From the IMG/VR virus record IMGVR_UViG_3300032236_000235, positions 1-38,022 of that record: a stretch of 38,022 nucleotides of DNA; one strand, given 5' to 3'. The notes beneath the pieces were generated by a model. That model did no database searches. It was not told the DNA's origin and saw only the letters and a program-made list of their open reading frames with translations. Source of the stretch: a virus. Made by a program: the position numbers and the translations under genes. Below are positions 31,702 through 38,022 of this stretch, one piece after another. Each line of letters begins with the position of its first letter. Within the stretch, counting starts at the first letter, position 1.

Positions 31702-32772
31702 TTAGCGTGTGTATACGCCGATGTTGGGCGCGTAGTAGATGGGTGACTTGTCTCGTTCTTCTTGCTCAGCCATGTTGAAGTACTTTTCAGCTTGGCCTTC
31801 AAGGTACTGAATGCGTCCAGCATCGACGCCGGGGAGTAATTGCGCCATCTGGTGCGAAAGCATGTTCTGGATTGCCATCAACCAACGATCTGGGATAGCC
31901 AACTGCCCACTCAAGGCTCCAACGTCTTCAATCTGCGCCGAGTACCACACGGTCATCTGAATGAACGGGTCGGATGGGGCGGGCCACAGGTAGATGGTTG
32001 CCTGAGGGATGGTGCGATCAAACCAGTACTGATACGGTTGATTTGCAGTGAAATTCTTGTTTGGCAGGTTGGTGTAGTCGTCGCGGTTCAAGCGAGCCAT
32101 GGTGATCTCTGTGGAGTTGTTGCCCACATAAAACTCACGCACAGCCAAGGTGTTGCCGCCAGTCTCGCGCATGCGGTAGTACTGGCAAGTCTGACCGGGG
32201 TCAATGTCGTACCACAGCCACTCGTTGTTCACCCATGTTGTGACGCCAGTGTCCTCAAGCAGGTTCCAAGTTGTGCCGTCGTTTGACCACTCAAGCAAAA
32301 TATGAAACGAGCCAGAGACCCCGGGCAGGATACCAATTGACCCTGCATACACCTCGTTGTATTGACCGTAGTTGATGCCGATGTACCCGTTGGATGCGGT
32401 TTGTTGGTCAATCGTGTCCACGTCGCCATCAAATGCGTTTGCAACGACGCCAGAGGAATTTAGGTAGCCACCATCACTGTTGGGTGTTGGGCGGTTCAAG
32501 CGGCGATACAGGGCGTTCAAAACATCATTTCCTCCCACAGGTAGCAGGTATTGATATTGATCAGCCTTGAGGCCGTATACCTTCTTCTTGATGGCAAAGT
32601 ACTGAATGCCTTGGTTGATCAGGTTGCTCAGCAAATAGAACAGCGCACGCTTGGCAGACAGGACTTGTTCGTCGGTTAGCTCTTCAGCAAACTTTCCAGC
32701 GCGACGAGCACCATCATCAATCAGGTTTTGAACCGTTATGACAGTTTGACCGACTGTTCCTGAGTACGCCAT
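31702..32772 (-). CDS. Head-tail adaptor-like protein with discoidin-like insertion
   Basis: A 356-residue protein. The N-terminal helices (about 12-75: NLIDDGARRAGKFAEELTDE, LFYLLSNLINQGIQYFAIKK) and the C-terminal part (about 218-356: YQYWFDRTIPQATIYLWPAP, QMTVWYSAQIEDVG) resemble phage adaptor/structural proteins. Between them, residues about 100-217 look like an F5/8-type (discoidin-like) beta-sandwich: VVANAFDGDVDT, GYIGINYG, FHILLEWSNDGTTWNLLEDT and QYYRMRET. Such domains often bind sugars. AAGGA precedes ATG 32772. The adaptor call is inferred from fold pattern and position. Confidence 0.6.
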   Translation of the reverse strand: MAYSGTVGQTVITVQNLIDDGARRAGKFAEELTDEQVLSAKRALFYLLSNLINQGIQYFAIKKKVYGLKADQYQYLLPVGGNDVLNALYRRLNRPTPNSDGGYLNSSGVVANAFDGDVDTIDQQTASNGYIGINYGQYNEVYAGSIGILPGVSGSFHILLEWSNDGTTWNLLEDTGVTTWVNNEWLWYDIDPGQTCQYYRMRETGGNTLAVREFYVGNNSTEITMARLNRDDYTNLPNKNFTANQPYQYWFDRTIPQATIYLWPAPSDPFIQMTVWYSAQIEDVGALSGQLAIPDRWLMAIQNMLSHQMAQLLPGVDAGRIQYLEGQAEKYFNMAEQEERDKSPIYYAPNIGVYTR

Positions 32773-32781
32773 GCTAGTTCC

Positions 32782-33075
32782 TTACCAGTTTGGGTGAATT
32801 TTTTTCTTTGTGGAAGAATGTTTTTTAACCTTTCCACCCTTTGATTTTCCCATTAAGGAATCAAAAGCTGAACTTGTTTTTTCAAAATCCGCAACCGACG
32901 AATTAACCGCATCATCAAAACCCGATGATGAATCTTTTAATGCTTGGTCTGTAACCTCATTGACTCTTTGCTGTAATCGGTCATACGCTTCTTTGTTTTC
33001 CAACTCTGTTCCGTTGACGTAATAAGCCATTGAGCCATCAGCTTTTTTTCCTGATTTGAATGTGTAATTAGGCAT
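32782..33075 (-). CDS. Trp-ended small protein (array member 6)
   Basis: A 97-residue protein starting MPNYTFKSGKKADGSMAYYV. A beta-hairpin-like N-terminus is followed by a charged helix (EAYDRLQQRVNEVTDQALKD). The basic C-terminus has the KGGKV motif and ends H-P-N-W. The stop codon runs straight into the next ribosome-binding site (TGGTAAGGA). It lies in an array of six genes with this ending. Likely a virion or assembly protein by position. Confidence 0.65.
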   Translation of the reverse strand: MPNYTFKSGKKADGSMAYYVNGTELENKEAYDRLQQRVNEVTDQALKDSSSGFDDAVNSSVADFEKTSSAFDSLMGKSKGGKVKKHSSTKKKIHPNW

Positions 33076-33084
33076 TGCAATCCC

Positions 33085-33522
33085 TCACCAGTTAGAGTTT
33101 TTGACGCCTTTAGCCGAAGTTGATACACCGCATTGACTCAGGTCGATCTTTCCACCCTTTGAGTACGATGATGTGCTTCGCTTAGCGGCGCTGATTCTGT
33201 TACCCAAGGCGTTCATGCGCCCAGCGATGTCACGCGCCTTGAGTTCGTTTTCAGACAGGTTCTGCTCACGATCAGCGTATTGCCAGTTCTTTCCCTTTTC
33301 ATGAATAGCCTCCATTTCAGCGTGTTGCTTTTCAAGTTCGGGTAGGTTTGCGGCATCTTGCTTGGCCTGCTCTTGCAATTGCATAGCGCGTTCTTTTTTT
33401 CGTGCCGCCATGCGTGCGTCGGTTTCTTCGCGGGTGGGCGTCTTGTCGTACTTACCCTCAAACATGCGTTTGATGGCCTCTTGAGCGCCTTTTTTAATTG
33501 CGGGACTTGATTCCAACATCAT
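33085..33522 (-). CDS. Trp-ended helical protein (array member 5)
   Basis: A 145-residue protein, strongly helical and charged (ARKKERAMQLQEQAKQDAAN; ENELKARDIAGRMNALGNRI). The C-terminus carries YSKGGKIDLSQCGVST and ends N-S-N-W. AAGGAG lies before ATG 33522. The junction is TGGTGAGGG, a variant of the array junction. The shared tail suggests a common partner or location for the array proteins. Confidence 0.65.
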   Translation of the reverse strand: MMLESSPAIKKGAQEAIKRMFEGKYDKTPTREETDARMAARKKERAMQLQEQAKQDAANLPELEKQHAEMEAIHEKGKNWQYADREQNLSENELKARDIAGRMNALGNRISAAKRSTSSYSKGGKIDLSQCGVSTSAKGVKNSNW

Positions 33523-33531
33523 GATGACTCC

Positions 33532-34068
33532 TTACCATTTGGGTGACTTTGAATTTTTTGAGGCGGTTGAAACTCGACCCGAGCCAAGATTGATTCTGCC
33601 CGATTTGTCGGTATAACTATGCACTTTTCCGCCTTTTTTCATGCCCATAGGGGGAATTTGAGGCATGCCGGGGGGAGGGGGCATGCTTTGTGCGCCCTGC
33701 TGGGACATATCTTTGGTGGGTGCAGATTGGTAAGGCGCAGGCATAGTAGCTGGCCTGCCCGCATTTGGGGACATGCCGCCACCACCCTGAGGTGGAGCAA
33801 CAGGTCGTCCGGGGTTGGGTTGGGGCATCTGCTCTACCTGCCCGCCAGTCGCGGGGCCTGCTTGGTTCATTGCGTTGCCAATTGCTGGGCCAGCGTTTTG
33901 CATGTTGTTCATGCCACCAGCAAACGCACCTTTTATGTCATTCATGGCTTGTTGAGGAGGCGCAACCGGCTGAGGAGGCGCAACAACCTGACGAGGGGTC
34001 GGCAGTTGCTGAGGAGCAAATGGTCGAGGAGCCTGACCAAACATTGGGTTTCTGTTGAAAATGGGCAT
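33532..34068 (-). CDS. Trp-ended Pro/Gln-rich protein (array member 4)
   Basis: A 178-residue, largely disordered protein from ATG 34068 (MPIFNRNPMFGQAPRPFAPQ), rich in Pro, Gln and Gly (VAPPQPVAPPQQ). A short Ala/Met/Asn helix is present (GGMNNMQNAGPAIGNAMNQA). The tail has KKGGKVHSYTDKSGRINLGS, then GRVSTASKNSKSPKW, ending S-P-K-W. AAGGA precedes the start; the junction after the stop is TGGTAAGGA. Confidence 0.65.
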   Translation of the reverse strand: MPIFNRNPMFGQAPRPFAPQQLPTPRQVVAPPQPVAPPQQAMNDIKGAFAGGMNNMQNAGPAIGNAMNQAGPATGGQVEQMPQPNPGRPVAPPQGGGGMSPNAGRPATMPAPYQSAPTKDMSQQGAQSMPPPPGMPQIPPMGMKKGGKVHSYTDKSGRINLGSGRVSTASKNSKSPKW

Positions 34069-34076
34069 GATGTTCC

Positions 34077-34268
34077 TTACCAAGTGGGAGAAGATTTATT
34101 CTTCTCGTGGGTTGTTACCTTGCAATCACTCAGATCAATCTTGCCGCCTTGCTTGTATTTGCTCAAGCTAAAAGGTGGCTGTGCGTTTTGTGAGCCAACT
34201 GCACCACCATCGCTTTGGGCGGGTTGCTCTGGAACATCAGGCGTCTCAACGGTTGTGTCTATTGGCAT
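34077..34268 (-). CDS. Trp-ended small protein (array member 3)
   Basis: A 63-residue protein (MPIDTTVETPDVPEQPAQSD): an acidic, Pro-rich, probably disordered front half followed by KQGGKIDLSDCKVTTHEKNK and the ending S-P-T-W. GGKIDLSxCxV(S/T)T is shared with array member 5. AAGGAG precedes ATG 34268 and TGGTAAGGA follows the coding end. Function unknown. Confidence 0.65.
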   Translation of the reverse strand: MPIDTTVETPDVPEQPAQSDGGAVGSQNAQPPFSLSKYKQGGKIDLSDCKVTTHEKNKSSPTW

Positions 34269-34278
34269 GATCTTCTCC

Positions 34279-34674
34279 TTACCAGCCGGGGCATTTCCAA
34301 CGCTTCAAAGACGCCTTTGCTCTCTCTGCGTCGCCCTTTGAGTGCTCTACCACTCCGCTCATGCGGGCACAAAAAGAGTCCTTGCGCGATCCACCTTGGG
34401 GTTGAGGAGCCTTCAGGTGGGATCCAGTCTCACGGTTGTACTTTTCGCGGCCTTTTTCGGTCAATCCAGCGCCCTTGGAGACTGGAAGCTTCTCACCCCT
34501 GCCGACGGCAAGAGAGACGCCTCCATCCTTCATTCTGGCTGTTTTGGCTGACTCTTTGAAGGCTTGAGCAGTTGGAGCGCCCTTTGCACCCGGCTTACGC
34601 ATGCGCTCACCAGAGCCTTCAGCGATTCTTTGCTGTTTTGCATGAATGTTGGCATATAGCCCTTTCTTTGCCAT
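34279..34674 (-). CDS. Trp-ended basic protein (array member 2)
   Basis: A 131-residue basic protein from ATG 34674 (MAKKGLYANIHAKQQRIAEG); a longer start at 34704 would run into the previous gene. MRKPGAKGAPTAQAFKESAK and GLTEKGREKYNRETGSHLKA are recognisable from small proteins in phages and other aquatic sequences. The end is FCARMSGVVEHSKGDAERAK and then K-C-P-G-W. It probably binds nucleic acid or another virion protein; inference only. Confidence 0.65.
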   Translation of the reverse strand: MAKKGLYANIHAKQQRIAEGSGERMRKPGAKGAPTAQAFKESAKTARMKDGGVSLAVGRGEKLPVSKGAGLTEKGREKYNRETGSHLKAPQPQGGSRKDSFCARMSGVVEHSKGDAERAKASLKRWKCPGW

Positions 34675-34676
34675 GA

Positions 34677-34835
34677 TTACCAGCCAGACTTGCCGCCACC
34701 GCACATCTTCTTTGGTGCGGCACGCTTGGTGCTGTATGCAATTGCCACGGCTTGCTTGACAGGTTTGCCTGCCTTGACCTCGGTGGCAATGTTCTTTTTG
34801 AACGCCTTTTCAGATTTGGATTTGATCAGGGGCAT
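34677..34835 (-). CDS. Trp-ended 52-residue basic protein (array member 1)
   Basis: The frame from ATG 34835 to TAA 34677 ([20 protein letters not shown]). [20 protein letters not shown] is a motif I know from short basic proteins next to phage structural genes (related to DUF6496). The tail has [13 protein letters not shown] precedes the start. It is too short for many gene finders but clearly fits the array pattern. Confidence 0.65.
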
Positions 34836-34844
34836 GATGCGTCC

Positions 34845-35609
34845 TTAATCTGGGTTTTTGATCAAGTAGCCACCTTGGTAGCAACTCACAGTAAATGGGC
34901 TACCAGTGTTTGCCTTGACTGTAAATTGCAAGTCGGTTTTTTCAGGATGGGAAATTGGGCTGTTGTTGAACGGGACTTCTTGCTTTTGCACAAAAGTGGA
35001 TTGATGCGTCAAAGTGATTTGACCGCTTTGTGTGCCAGTGTTCAACTTGTTCCACTCAGCAGAAATCATGTAGTTGCTGGATGTAAATCCAATGCTTGCA
35101 TCGTACTGAGAGTAAGTCAAATAGAAGGTGTAGCCAGCGGGAACGGTGTAAATAGACATCTGAGTCTGACCAACGCCAGCGGCAATCTTGGCGTACACAG
35201 TTGAACTGATGGACGCTGTGATGTTTCCAGTATTTGTGCTGTTCAGCATTTCCATGCTGTTAATGCGCAAAAACGAATTTGTTGTGGTTACGTTTGTTGT
35301 GCCGTTCAGTGCAATTGTCTCTGTCAGGATGTTGTAGTTTGCATCCAAGCCGTTGATGATTACCGAACGAGTTGTATTGTCTGTTGCGCTGTCGCTCACC
35401 AAAACCAATTGAGCGGCAGACGATGGGTAAACATAGTTGCCACCAGAAAGAGTTAAACCCTCCCACAATGGGCCTTGTGCACTGCTACCAACCGCTGTTG
35501 AGTATCCAAAAATTGAGACAACAGAGTGACCATCAACTTGCCCACGGGCAATTTGCAAGTCAAACGGCTCATACGCACCCATGCGCGTGACGGAAGAATA
35601 AGTTCCCAT
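34845..35609 (-). CDS. Beta-rich virion structural protein
   Basis: A 254-residue protein from ATG 35609 (MGTYSSVTRMGAYEPFDLQI), with GGAGG five bases upstream, preferred over the TTG at 35621. Long beta-rich Thr/Ser/Asn stretches (TLSGGNYVYPSSAAQLVLVS, ILTETIALNGTTNVTTTNSF) and the absence of Lys/Arg clusters suggest an exterior capsid or head-tail protein. It is found two genes downstream of the capsid-decoration candidate in the same operon. Function inferred. Confidence 0.6.
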   Translation of the reverse strand: MGTYSSVTRMGAYEPFDLQIARGQVDGHSVVSIFGYSTAVGSSAQGPLWEGLTLSGGNYVYPSSAAQLVLVSDSATDNTTRSVIINGLDANYNILTETIALNGTTNVTTTNSFLRINSMEMLNSTNTGNITASISSTVYAKIAAGVGQTQMSIYTVPAGYTFYLTYSQYDASIGFTSSNYMISAEWNKLNTGTQSGQITLTHQSTFVQKQEVPFNNSPISHPEKTDLQFTVKANTGSPFTVSCYQGGYLIKNPD

Positions 35610-35659: not shown

Positions 35660-37051
35660 TTAGCACTTCGCTGAACCGCCACGCTTTTTGCTTGGCGTAA
35701 CAGTCACCGACCTTTCAGTCTTGGTGACGCTTCCTTCTGGAGTGGATGGCGTGAAGTAGCTCTTTGCTTTACCGTAGAGTTCCTTTGCCATGCTCAGGGG
35801 ATTCAAAGCATCTTCTAGCTCTCTACTTGCTTTGTCAGACACAGCCTTGGGATTGCTTACCGTGTATTTGTCATTGCTTGTAGAGCCGCCATCATCAAAC
35901 TTTTTTACCTGACCACCCTTCTTAAAAGTGCCAGACTGCAAGCTGTTAGCCACGGGACGGGAAACGAAGTGACGAGGCATCTTTACTGCCTTGCCCTCAT
36001 CGTTAACACTTCCCCCCGTGGCGTAGGCTTTTTTTGAGGCATGACCTCCGTGCTTGAAGCCACCAGCATTCGCTTCCTTAACCTCGCCAGTCTTGGTGTT
36101 CACCTTGCCGGGCTTGGCGGTGTCAGCGGGACGGTTTTCCCAATCGCCATCATGCTCAATGGTTCCACCATGGGCATAGTGATGCTTGGCCTTACCGCCA
36201 TGCTTGAAGCCACCAGCGTTGCTCATGCGCACGCCTTTAGTTCCATGGGCAGGGTCGTTATGGTCACCATCATCAACCTTGGTGTTCTCATACATTTTGA
36301 CGTTACCAGTGATGGTTCCGCCTGATGCGTAGCGATGTTTTTTGTGGGCGTGACCGCCATGCTTAAAGCCGCCAGCATTGCCTTCTTTGACTTCGCCAGT
36401 ACCGTGAGCGCGATCAGTCTTGCGACCATCGCGCATCTTGGTTTTGACGTAAGGCTTCTCGTCATGCTCAATGGTGGTCTTGGTCTCGAAAGCTTCCGCT
36501 TTCTTTTGCAAACCGCCGCCAGACTTCAGCTTCAGGTGTGTACCCTTACCGCCTTTGTGCTCTTGAGCGTCATGCTGTGCCATAGCCTTCTTGATCATGG
36601 CCTTGTCTTGAGCCATATCACCAGCCTTGCCACCCTTCTTCATGCCGGGTTGCAGTGGAGCACTAGCCATCGCGCGTTGAGCCAAGGCACGCTTTGCCAA
36701 GGCCGCACGAATCGCAGGGCTTGCCATTGCCGCCATAGCCGCAGGGTTAGCCATGGGAGAACCCATCATGCCGCCATCAGCCTTGTGCGCAACCTTGCCG
36801 CCACCCTTGAAGTTGGGGTTCATGGCTTTCTTGCGCTCGTGCAGTGAGGGCTTTTTGGGGCTGTGTCCATGCTCAGCTTCCATAGCCTCGTGGTGCTTGG
36901 TGTGACCACCGTGCGCCATGTGGTGCATAGGCTTGTGACCATGCTCCTCTTTGGCTTTGTGCTTGGAATGAACGTGACCGCCTTTTTTCATCTTTAGGAT
37001 GACAGAAGGCTCGTCGGTCATCATCTTTGGCATTTGTTTAAATTCAGCCAT
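35660..37051 (-). CDS. His/Lys/Gly-rich repeat protein next to the capsid gene
   Basis: A 463-residue protein of strongly biased composition. The N-terminal 70 residues have many His (HGHKPMHHMAHGGHTKHHEA); residues 93-135 are Ala/Met-rich. Three copies of NAGGFKHGGxAxKKxYAxGG-like units lie at about 225-245, 278-296 and 328-347, and KKGG recurs through the protein. The C-terminus is basic and ends K-R-G-G-S-A-K-C. AAGGGG precedes ATG 37051. Possible roles are metal or DNA binding inside the head, or an internal scaffold; none is shown. Confidence 0.65.
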   Translation of the reverse strand: MAEFKQMPKMMTDEPSVILKMKKGGHVHSKHKAKEEHGHKPMHHMAHGGHTKHHEAMEAEHGHSPKKPSLHERKKAMNPNFKGGGKVAHKADGGMMGSPMANPAAMAAMASPAIRAALAKRALAQRAMASAPLQPGMKKGGKAGDMAQDKAMIKKAMAQHDAQEHKGGKGTHLKLKSGGGLQKKAEAFETKTTIEHDEKPYVKTKMRDGRKTDRAHGTGEVKEGNAGGFKHGGHAHKKHRYASGGTITGNVKMYENTKVDDGDHNDPAHGTKGVRMSNAGGFKHGGKAKHHYAHGGTIEHDGDWENRPADTAKPGKVNTKTGEVKEANAGGFKHGGHASKKAYATGGSVNDEGKAVKMPRHFVSRPVANSLQSGTFKKGGQVKKFDDGGSTSNDKYTVSNPKAVSDKASRELEDALNPLSMAKELYGKAKSYFTPSTPEGSVTKTERSVTVTPSKKRGGSAKC

Positions 37052-37557: not shown

Positions 37558-38022
37558 TTACGCGCCGGGTGTACCGTACATTGCACGGGGATCAGTGAAG
37601 CCGACGTCGTAACGCTCTGTCGCTTTGTAGCGCATAGAGTCAGTCTCGAAGTCACCTTCCATGGTCTTCTCCAAACGACGACGCATCAAAAGCTTCATGC
37701 CTTCGGGAGCGTCGGTTTGAACCCACCATGCTGTGCTGGAAGTCAAACGAGACAACACAGCCGCGCCTTCGTCCAACAGACCGATGGACTTGACGGGGTT
37801 GATGTCGTTGTTTGCATTGCCAGTACGCAAAACAGACTTCAACAACACTTCGGCTTGGAAGATGTTGCCGGGGGCCACCACCAACTGGCGGGGAACCAAA
37901 CGAATCTTCTTGCCGTTGTTGTCCACAGCCTGACGGATTTTAATCAACATCTGTTCGAGAGATGTTTGAGACAAAACAGCGGCAGTGGTCAACTGGTTGC
38001 TGAAAGTACCATTCACGTTGGG
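37558..38022 (-). CDS. Major capsid protein, C-terminal part (cut at window edge)
   Basis: The frame is open to the right edge, giving about 154 residues of the C-terminal part; there is no true start in the window (an in-frame GTG lies near 38016). QLVVAPGNIFQAEVLLKSVL, LDEGAAVLSRLTSSTAWWVQTDAP (in part) and the end GDFETDSMRYKATERYDVGF followed by DPRAMYGTPGA are typical of HK97-fold major capsid proteins. It would form the icosahedral shell. It is the first visible gene of the leftward late operon. Confidence 0.75.
   Translation of the reverse strand, partial: PNVNGTFSNQLTTAAVLSQTSLEQMLIKIRQAVDNNGKKIRLVPRQLVVAPGNIFQAEVLLKSVLRTGNANNDINPVKSIGLLDEGAAVLSRLTSSTAWWVQTDAPEGMKLLMRRRLEKTMEGDFETDSMRYKATERYDVGFTDPRAMYGTPGA

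Follow-up and report, generated by a model that had tools for sequence, protein, structure and literature searches.

Six genes ending in Trp in a phage late operon

The window analysed here is the whole of an IMG/VR virus record of 38022 bases. Its late operon lies on the minus strand and comprises, in order, the C-terminal part of the major capsid protein gene, the gene of a 149-aa protein, the gene of a GG-rich protein termed the hub, a phrog_8198 gene, six genes whose products end in Trp, the adaptor gene and genes for tail and fibre proteins (Table 1). The capsid gene is upstream of the tagged genes in the same operon, and from knowledge of the Mu gpT / Phage_capsid_4 family we take its product to have the HK97 fold. 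Solved structures related to the capsid protein, the adaptor or the 37063 protein were sought by sequence and none was found.

Table 1. Features of the late operon from the capsid gene to the adaptor gene (window coordinates)
Feature	Position	Strand	Remarks
Major capsid protein, C-terminal part (Mu gpT-like / Phage_capsid_4)	37558..38016	-	Pfam; 5' block boundary; truncated by the window end
GG-rich hub protein, 463 aa	35660..37051	-	repeated GG[KH][VIA] motifs; C-terminus GGSAKC
phrog_8198 protein	34845-35609	-	between the hub and the six Trp genes
Passenger gene 1, phrog_2423 family, MPLIKSKS...	34677..34835	-	tail GGGKSGW at 34680-34700; last residues KSGW
Passenger gene 2, Pfam DUF6321	34279..34674	-	conserved core to RWKC, then Trp extension PGW (34282-34290); last residues CPGW
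Passenger gene 3, 63 aa	34077..34268	-	long tag GGKIDLSDCKVTTHEKNKSSPTW at 34080-34148; last residues SPTW
Passenger gene 4, 178 aa, Pro/Gln-rich	33532..34068	-	tail MKKGGKVHSYTDKSGRINLGSGRVSTASKNSKSPKW at 33535-33642; last residues SPKW
Passenger gene 5, 145 aa, predicted helical	33085..33522	-	long tag GGKIDLSQCGVSTSAKGVKNSNW at 33088-33156; last residues NSNW
Passenger gene 6, 97 aa	32782..33075	-	tail KGGKVKKHSSTKKKIHPNW at 32785-32841; last residues HPNW
Adaptor (head-tail connector)	31702..32772	-	3' block boundary; MW202545 homologue annotated as tail adaptor

An initial annotation had described six consecutive genes ending in Trp with a GGK motif common to several of them. All six products do end in Trp, and the motif was confirmed: GGK(I/V) is found in four of the six, two of which have the longer form GGKIDLSxCxV(S/T)T, and a fifth gene (34677) has GGGKSGW instead. 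The product of passenger gene 2 belongs to Pfam DUF6321 (62.4 bits for a gathering cut-off of 28.5). A protein scan returned no relatives of the 32782 gene; homologues are nonetheless present in two of the related loci, L005 and L163. At the rate of Trp endings outside the capsid-adaptor block (about 7/1043 genes), the probability of six in a row is ~1e-13. Related loci lack independence, and a count of the unrelated fronts that carry the ending is a better measure than this run probability.

The Trp ending is conserved in relatives and carried by many fronts

Relatives of the window were gathered by means of a homologous adaptor, which gave 137 distinct loci; these are metagenomic contig fragments whose genes were called by a simple script, and the members of the clade are related. 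In 121 of the 137, Trp is the last residue encoded by the gene directly before the adaptor, and the ending is kept in relatives. Over the same loci, 183 of 582 genes inside the capsid-adaptor block end in Trp, compared to 11 of 1054 outside it (about 1% or fewer), and four of these 11 are block genes situated at contig edges. When both neighbours of a Trp-tagged gene were visible on its own strand, the gene had the capsid gene upstream of it and the adaptor gene downstream in every case (149/149), with one further case on the other strand.

The 243 Trp-ending proteins formed 27 clusters by single-linkage BLAST, 26 of them with a GG/RWxC tail. Because some clusters are singletons of low complexity and one joins several families via fusions, the count of "about 25 unrelated fronts" serves as a working figure, and the absence of a BLAST match does not prove the absence of homology. 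The initial proposal of a modular array, in which a C-terminal tag is kept while the front is exchanged, gains support from these genomes, as other phages carry different fronts on the same tail. In this freshwater virus group, many small proteins that appear unrelated carry the same Trp-final tag. The idea that all fronts are basic was dropped after a per-family count of isoelectric points in the Trp clade (median 8.2, range 4.1-10.4); with pI so mixed, "basic internal proteins" is no general rule in this clade.

Two passengers, at L005:7091-7516 and L163:6401-6685, have the same MMLKSSPT... start and the same tag with different middles. The exchange is therefore three-part and goes beyond front versus tag.

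No isolated phage was found to have the full Trp tag, the nearest record being the uncultured MW202545 with the short form GGKVNW. A tblastn search of short tag peptides against named phages gave nothing useful, and the open literature searched yielded nothing relevant on tag peptides or DUF6321.

A C-terminal motif at a nearly fixed distance from the stop codon

To define the tag without reference to gene ends, DNA was scanned for GGK(I/V)xLxxCxV(S/T)T with no condition on the downstream end. Among 2.9 million viral contigs there were 76 matches, 75 of which had a stop codon 23-25 residues after the first Gly. The same scan over 257 Gb of bacterial and archaeal genomes gave 15 matches, none with such a C-terminal tag. 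A stop distance that is near-constant in 75 of 76 viral matches and in 0 of 15 matches in bacterial genomes identifies the motif as a C-terminal tag of nearly fixed length. An adaptor gene lies downstream of 72 of the 75 full-tag copies; the stretch examined around the remaining three showed no adaptor. The full tag is 23 residues long, GGK(I/V)xLxxCxVSTxxKxxxSxW, with an aromatic last residue in 74 of 75 copies (W 64, F 10, C 1); shorter forms keep GGK...W or merely xGW.

Positions that the scan left free are conserved as well, Lys18 reaching 97%. Tags on different fronts in different loci share 61% protein identity, and at fourfold-degenerate sites of identical residues the agreement of third bases between fronts is 0.34, compared to a random expectation of 0.29. 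For orthologous tags dN/dS is about 0.16. These comparisons indicate that the tag is held by purifying selection at the protein level, and the three values together argue against the end of a recent DNA cassette. The shared end might otherwise be a relic of gene exchange, conserved 3' DNA and its junction having served as a cassette crossover point with no function in the protein. Fronts are indeed freely swapped, and one and the same N-terminal module, MMLKSSP for example, can stand before different middles. However, the near-random fourfold sites despite the protein identity, the low dN/dS of the tag and the frequency of TAAGGA after genes that do not end in Trp largely refute this explanation, which we regard as very improbable.

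In the predicted structure of the 33085 protein the long tag is of low confidence and unstructured (pTM 0.46 for both structure models), as expected for a docking peptide.

The stop codon junction is a common translation signal

The initial annotation had also described a junction shared by the Trp genes. The sequence TGGTAAGGA does occur exactly four times in the window, solely at Trp-gene junctions, and a variant, TGGTGAGGG, is present at 33085. As a piece of conserved cassette DNA the junction was not supported, given the fourfold sites reported above and the frequency of TAAGGA elsewhere: in the same loci TAAGGA follows 42 of 170 Trp-ending genes (25%) and 145 of 845 other genes (17%). In these phages the stop codon generally tends to overlap the Shine-Dalgarno sequence, so that "TGG + TAAGGA" amounts to a signal in the protein placed beside a common one for translation.

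Another explanation would be translational coupling (TGG-TAA-GGA) among the densely packed genes of the operon, with the Trp endings as a side effect; the four of six junctions in the window would speak for it. It is refuted by the junction counts, with TAAGGA after 17% of non-Trp genes and other junctions at most Trp genes in relatives, by the ten copies in which Phe replaces Trp in an otherwise intact tag, and by the Trp-free ADG tag of a sister clade, and we give it next to no weight.

A sister clade carries a different tag in the same interval

In a sister clade, the same capsid-adaptor interval holds proteins with a different C-terminal tag of fixed length (GGSASSRADGIAQRGKTRGKMV). Several unrelated proteins in loci L055, L058 and L062 end there in GGSASxRADGIAxRGKTKGKxC or near variants. 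A DNA scan with the pattern ADGxAx(K/R)G(K/R)T(K/R)G(K/R) gave at least 123 matches in at least 80 loci. Among the matches listed, 103 of 123 reach a stop codon exactly 15 residues after the A of ADG, the tag is found on about 57 front clusters with up to four front families per locus, and all 41 cases that could be checked lie between capsid and adaptor. Comparison of the Trp and ADG tag profiles with hhalign gave a probability of 2.3% (P 0.02), the KGG part alone being aligned, and did not demonstrate homology of the two tags.

The two tags were never mixed in 256 loci (176 Trp and, among the ADG matches listed, 80 ADG). Reference capsid proteins of the two clades, M1 and M2, are 38% identical. 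Where both tag and capsid could be read, 86 of 86 Trp loci had an M1 capsid and 36 of 36 listed ADG loci an M2 capsid, an agreement that is confounded by the common descent of each clade. Among the ADG matches listed, both tags are seen on members of four front families: DUF6321, MPxKSxxQ, "FxxAFxxAR...FNGKxYNT" and "LADFQxxYGxDKxLxD". Members of these shared families wear the tag of the clade in which they are found.

These observations bear on the possibility that the tag is a handle for host or phage proteostasis, through delivery to a chaperonin or recognition by a protease or its adaptor, and sets the stability of passengers rather than their location. In relatives, GroES is encoded upstream of the capsid gene, and the tag is C-terminal and, in the model, disordered. 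A host factor, however, would not require that the tag type track the capsid clade of the phage and change while the passengers stay, and within these genomes no protein encoded outside the capsid-adaptor interval bears a tag. We consider such a handle improbable.

The ADG tag was also found in a cultured cyanophage: in Planktothrix phage Pag-Yong1, the protein UMO75986.1 (L233:4313-5239), encoded between the capsid and adaptor genes, has the ADG-type tag GGMIGRDGCAKRGRTKGRFI, and the capsid protein of this phage shares 70% identity with its ADG-clade counterpart. In L282, L285, L055:4788-4982 and L062:4970-5164, a protein of 58-64 aa encoded downstream of the adaptor has the ADG motif at its N-terminus (MAFTKSADGIAKQGKTKGKNLGDSG...) rather than at the other end. 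In five further loci (L262, L299, L305, L321 and L327) ADG tags extend into an end resembling that of the hub (ADGIASKGKTKGKIVKMxxGGxC), with two end types in one protein.

A putative docking tag for the assembling head

The near-fixed length, the selection, the apparent disorder, the confinement to the head operon, the uniformity within a genome and the swap between capsid clades fit a peptide that docks on, or targets its carrier to, a lineage-specific partner in assembly. The explanation that we favour, at a probability of roughly 0.55, is that a lineage-specific C-terminal docking tag recruits unrelated small passengers to one partner in late assembly, most likely a component of the head. 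Small and largely disordered passengers would share the tag, which would bind a single lineage-specific partner. The likeliest candidate is the major capsid protein or some other part of the head under assembly. Several accessory proteins would thereby be built into or loaded into the head; we infer that virions would contain them, and their delivery may accompany that of the DNA. A capsid-targeting or cargo role is plausible, and it is strengthened by the capsid-adaptor location, by a second tag that is specific for a capsid clade and by the passengers common to both tag types.

Three known systems resemble this arrangement in part. Phage T4 targets proteins into its head during assembly by means of a capsid targeting sequence (CTS). 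In IPI-III and Alt, this is a short terminal peptide on divergent, poorly conserved small proteins that vary between relatives, and the CTS is carried by variable basic internal proteins (PMC9026906). The CTS differs in being N-terminal and removed by the prohead protease; all tags described here are C-terminal, the Trp tag is longer, with about 23 residues and an aromatic end, and the likeness implies no sequence relation.

Encapsulins use C-terminal cargo-loading peptides for an HK97-fold shell (PMC7355545). The likeness is that of a C-terminal peptide common to unrelated cargos and encoded beside the shell gene: here, about 26 front clusters carry the Trp-type tag and 57, among the matches listed, the ADG tag. 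An encapsulin is a nanocompartment of the cell and takes up a single cargo or a few, whereas many passengers per tag are present in this phage head operon, and we imply no homology. The gene upstream of the tagged genes encodes a capsid protein of Mu gpT / Phage_capsid_4 type in Pfam, presumably of HK97 fold from family knowledge.

In McdB, a C-terminal Trp is needed for association with the carboxysome and can be replaced in part by other aromatic residues (PMC11321042). McdB is a divergent and often disordered protein that depends on its terminal aromatic residue to associate with a protein shell, and the tag resembles it in that Phe may stand for Trp. McdB is a carboxysome adaptor of a single protein family with no connection to phages; here too the likeness implies no sequence relation, and the passengers scanned against Pfam gave no match to the McdB family.

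One candidate partner of the tag is the hub, in view of its GGKV repeats and GGxxC terminus. The tag could bind this GG-rich protein (35660-37051), or another late factor, in a complex or condensate of the infected cell outside the virion, the repeats and the end of the hub being part of the same network. Hub proteins are 20-fold enriched in GG[KH][VIA] (8.3 vs 0.4 per 1000 aa); of 58 homologues, 253-586 aa in length, 50 have Cys as the last residue, mostly after GGxx, which makes a third type of conserved C-terminal end; the hub gene and the tagged genes are neighbours; and C-terminal Trp motifs of the McdB type also affect condensates (PMC11321042). The hub is, however, also present in loci with a Trp-less DUF6321 and without Trp passengers, so that its presence does not call for the tag, and as a product of the head operon it may itself be virion material. 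We judge assembly outside the virion unlikely, though less so than a role in proteostasis.

Docking to a head component may have a wider meaning, which we put forward tentatively and with less confidence than docking itself: environmental short-tailed phages might possess a modular head-loading system with one address tag per capsid clade, in which any tagged small protein would be loaded and delivered and the interval would act as an exchangeable payload bay. The tag would then identify payload proteins from sequence alone. Most small proteins of phage head operons are without known function or location, and the tag provides a sequence-only rule for grouping them; common to dozens of unrelated families, it predicts one shared destination. 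Should the tag prove to act in head loading, uncultured phages would have an equivalent of the T4 CTS at the C-terminus, candidate delivered proteins could be listed from metagenomes, and a peptide for capsid cargo loading might be obtained. The swap of tags on passengers from one capsid clade to the other allows docking to be put to a direct test.

DUF6321 passengers with and without the tag

DUF6321 (PF19846) proteins have three ends according to lineage, a bare RWKC, RWxCPGW, or RAWNC followed by the ADG tag. The bare form is found in cyanophages, pelagiphages and some lake relatives, xGW is added in the Trp clade, and ADG is present in some sister-clade loci. Homologues in cyanophage P-SCSP1u, in pelagiphages and in freshwater phages are likewise encoded between capsid and adaptor or tail-tube genes. 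They differ in that, outside the Trp clade, they stop at RWKC; the xGW extension is seen only in this lineage and the ADG tag in some sister-clade members. On the adaptor tree, the distribution of bare and Trp endings requires at least 4 changes within the Trp clade, and in loci devoid of the Trp ending the capsid proteins are still at least 80% identical to the Trp-clade reference. Loss in at least four places with so similar a capsid indicates that the tag is dispensable. Another Trp passenger was present in 0 of 11 loci with bare DUF6321 vs 40 of 121 with the Trp form (P 0.03, kinship ignored).

One result counts against docking to the head: in the T7-like capsid of P-SCSP1u, a phage with a bare DUF6321 homologue, there is no icosahedrally ordered extra protein. 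In the capsid-adaptor interval of the same phage (L166:11536-11954), the halves of the window DUF6321 protein are encoded by two separate, overlapping genes in reversed order.
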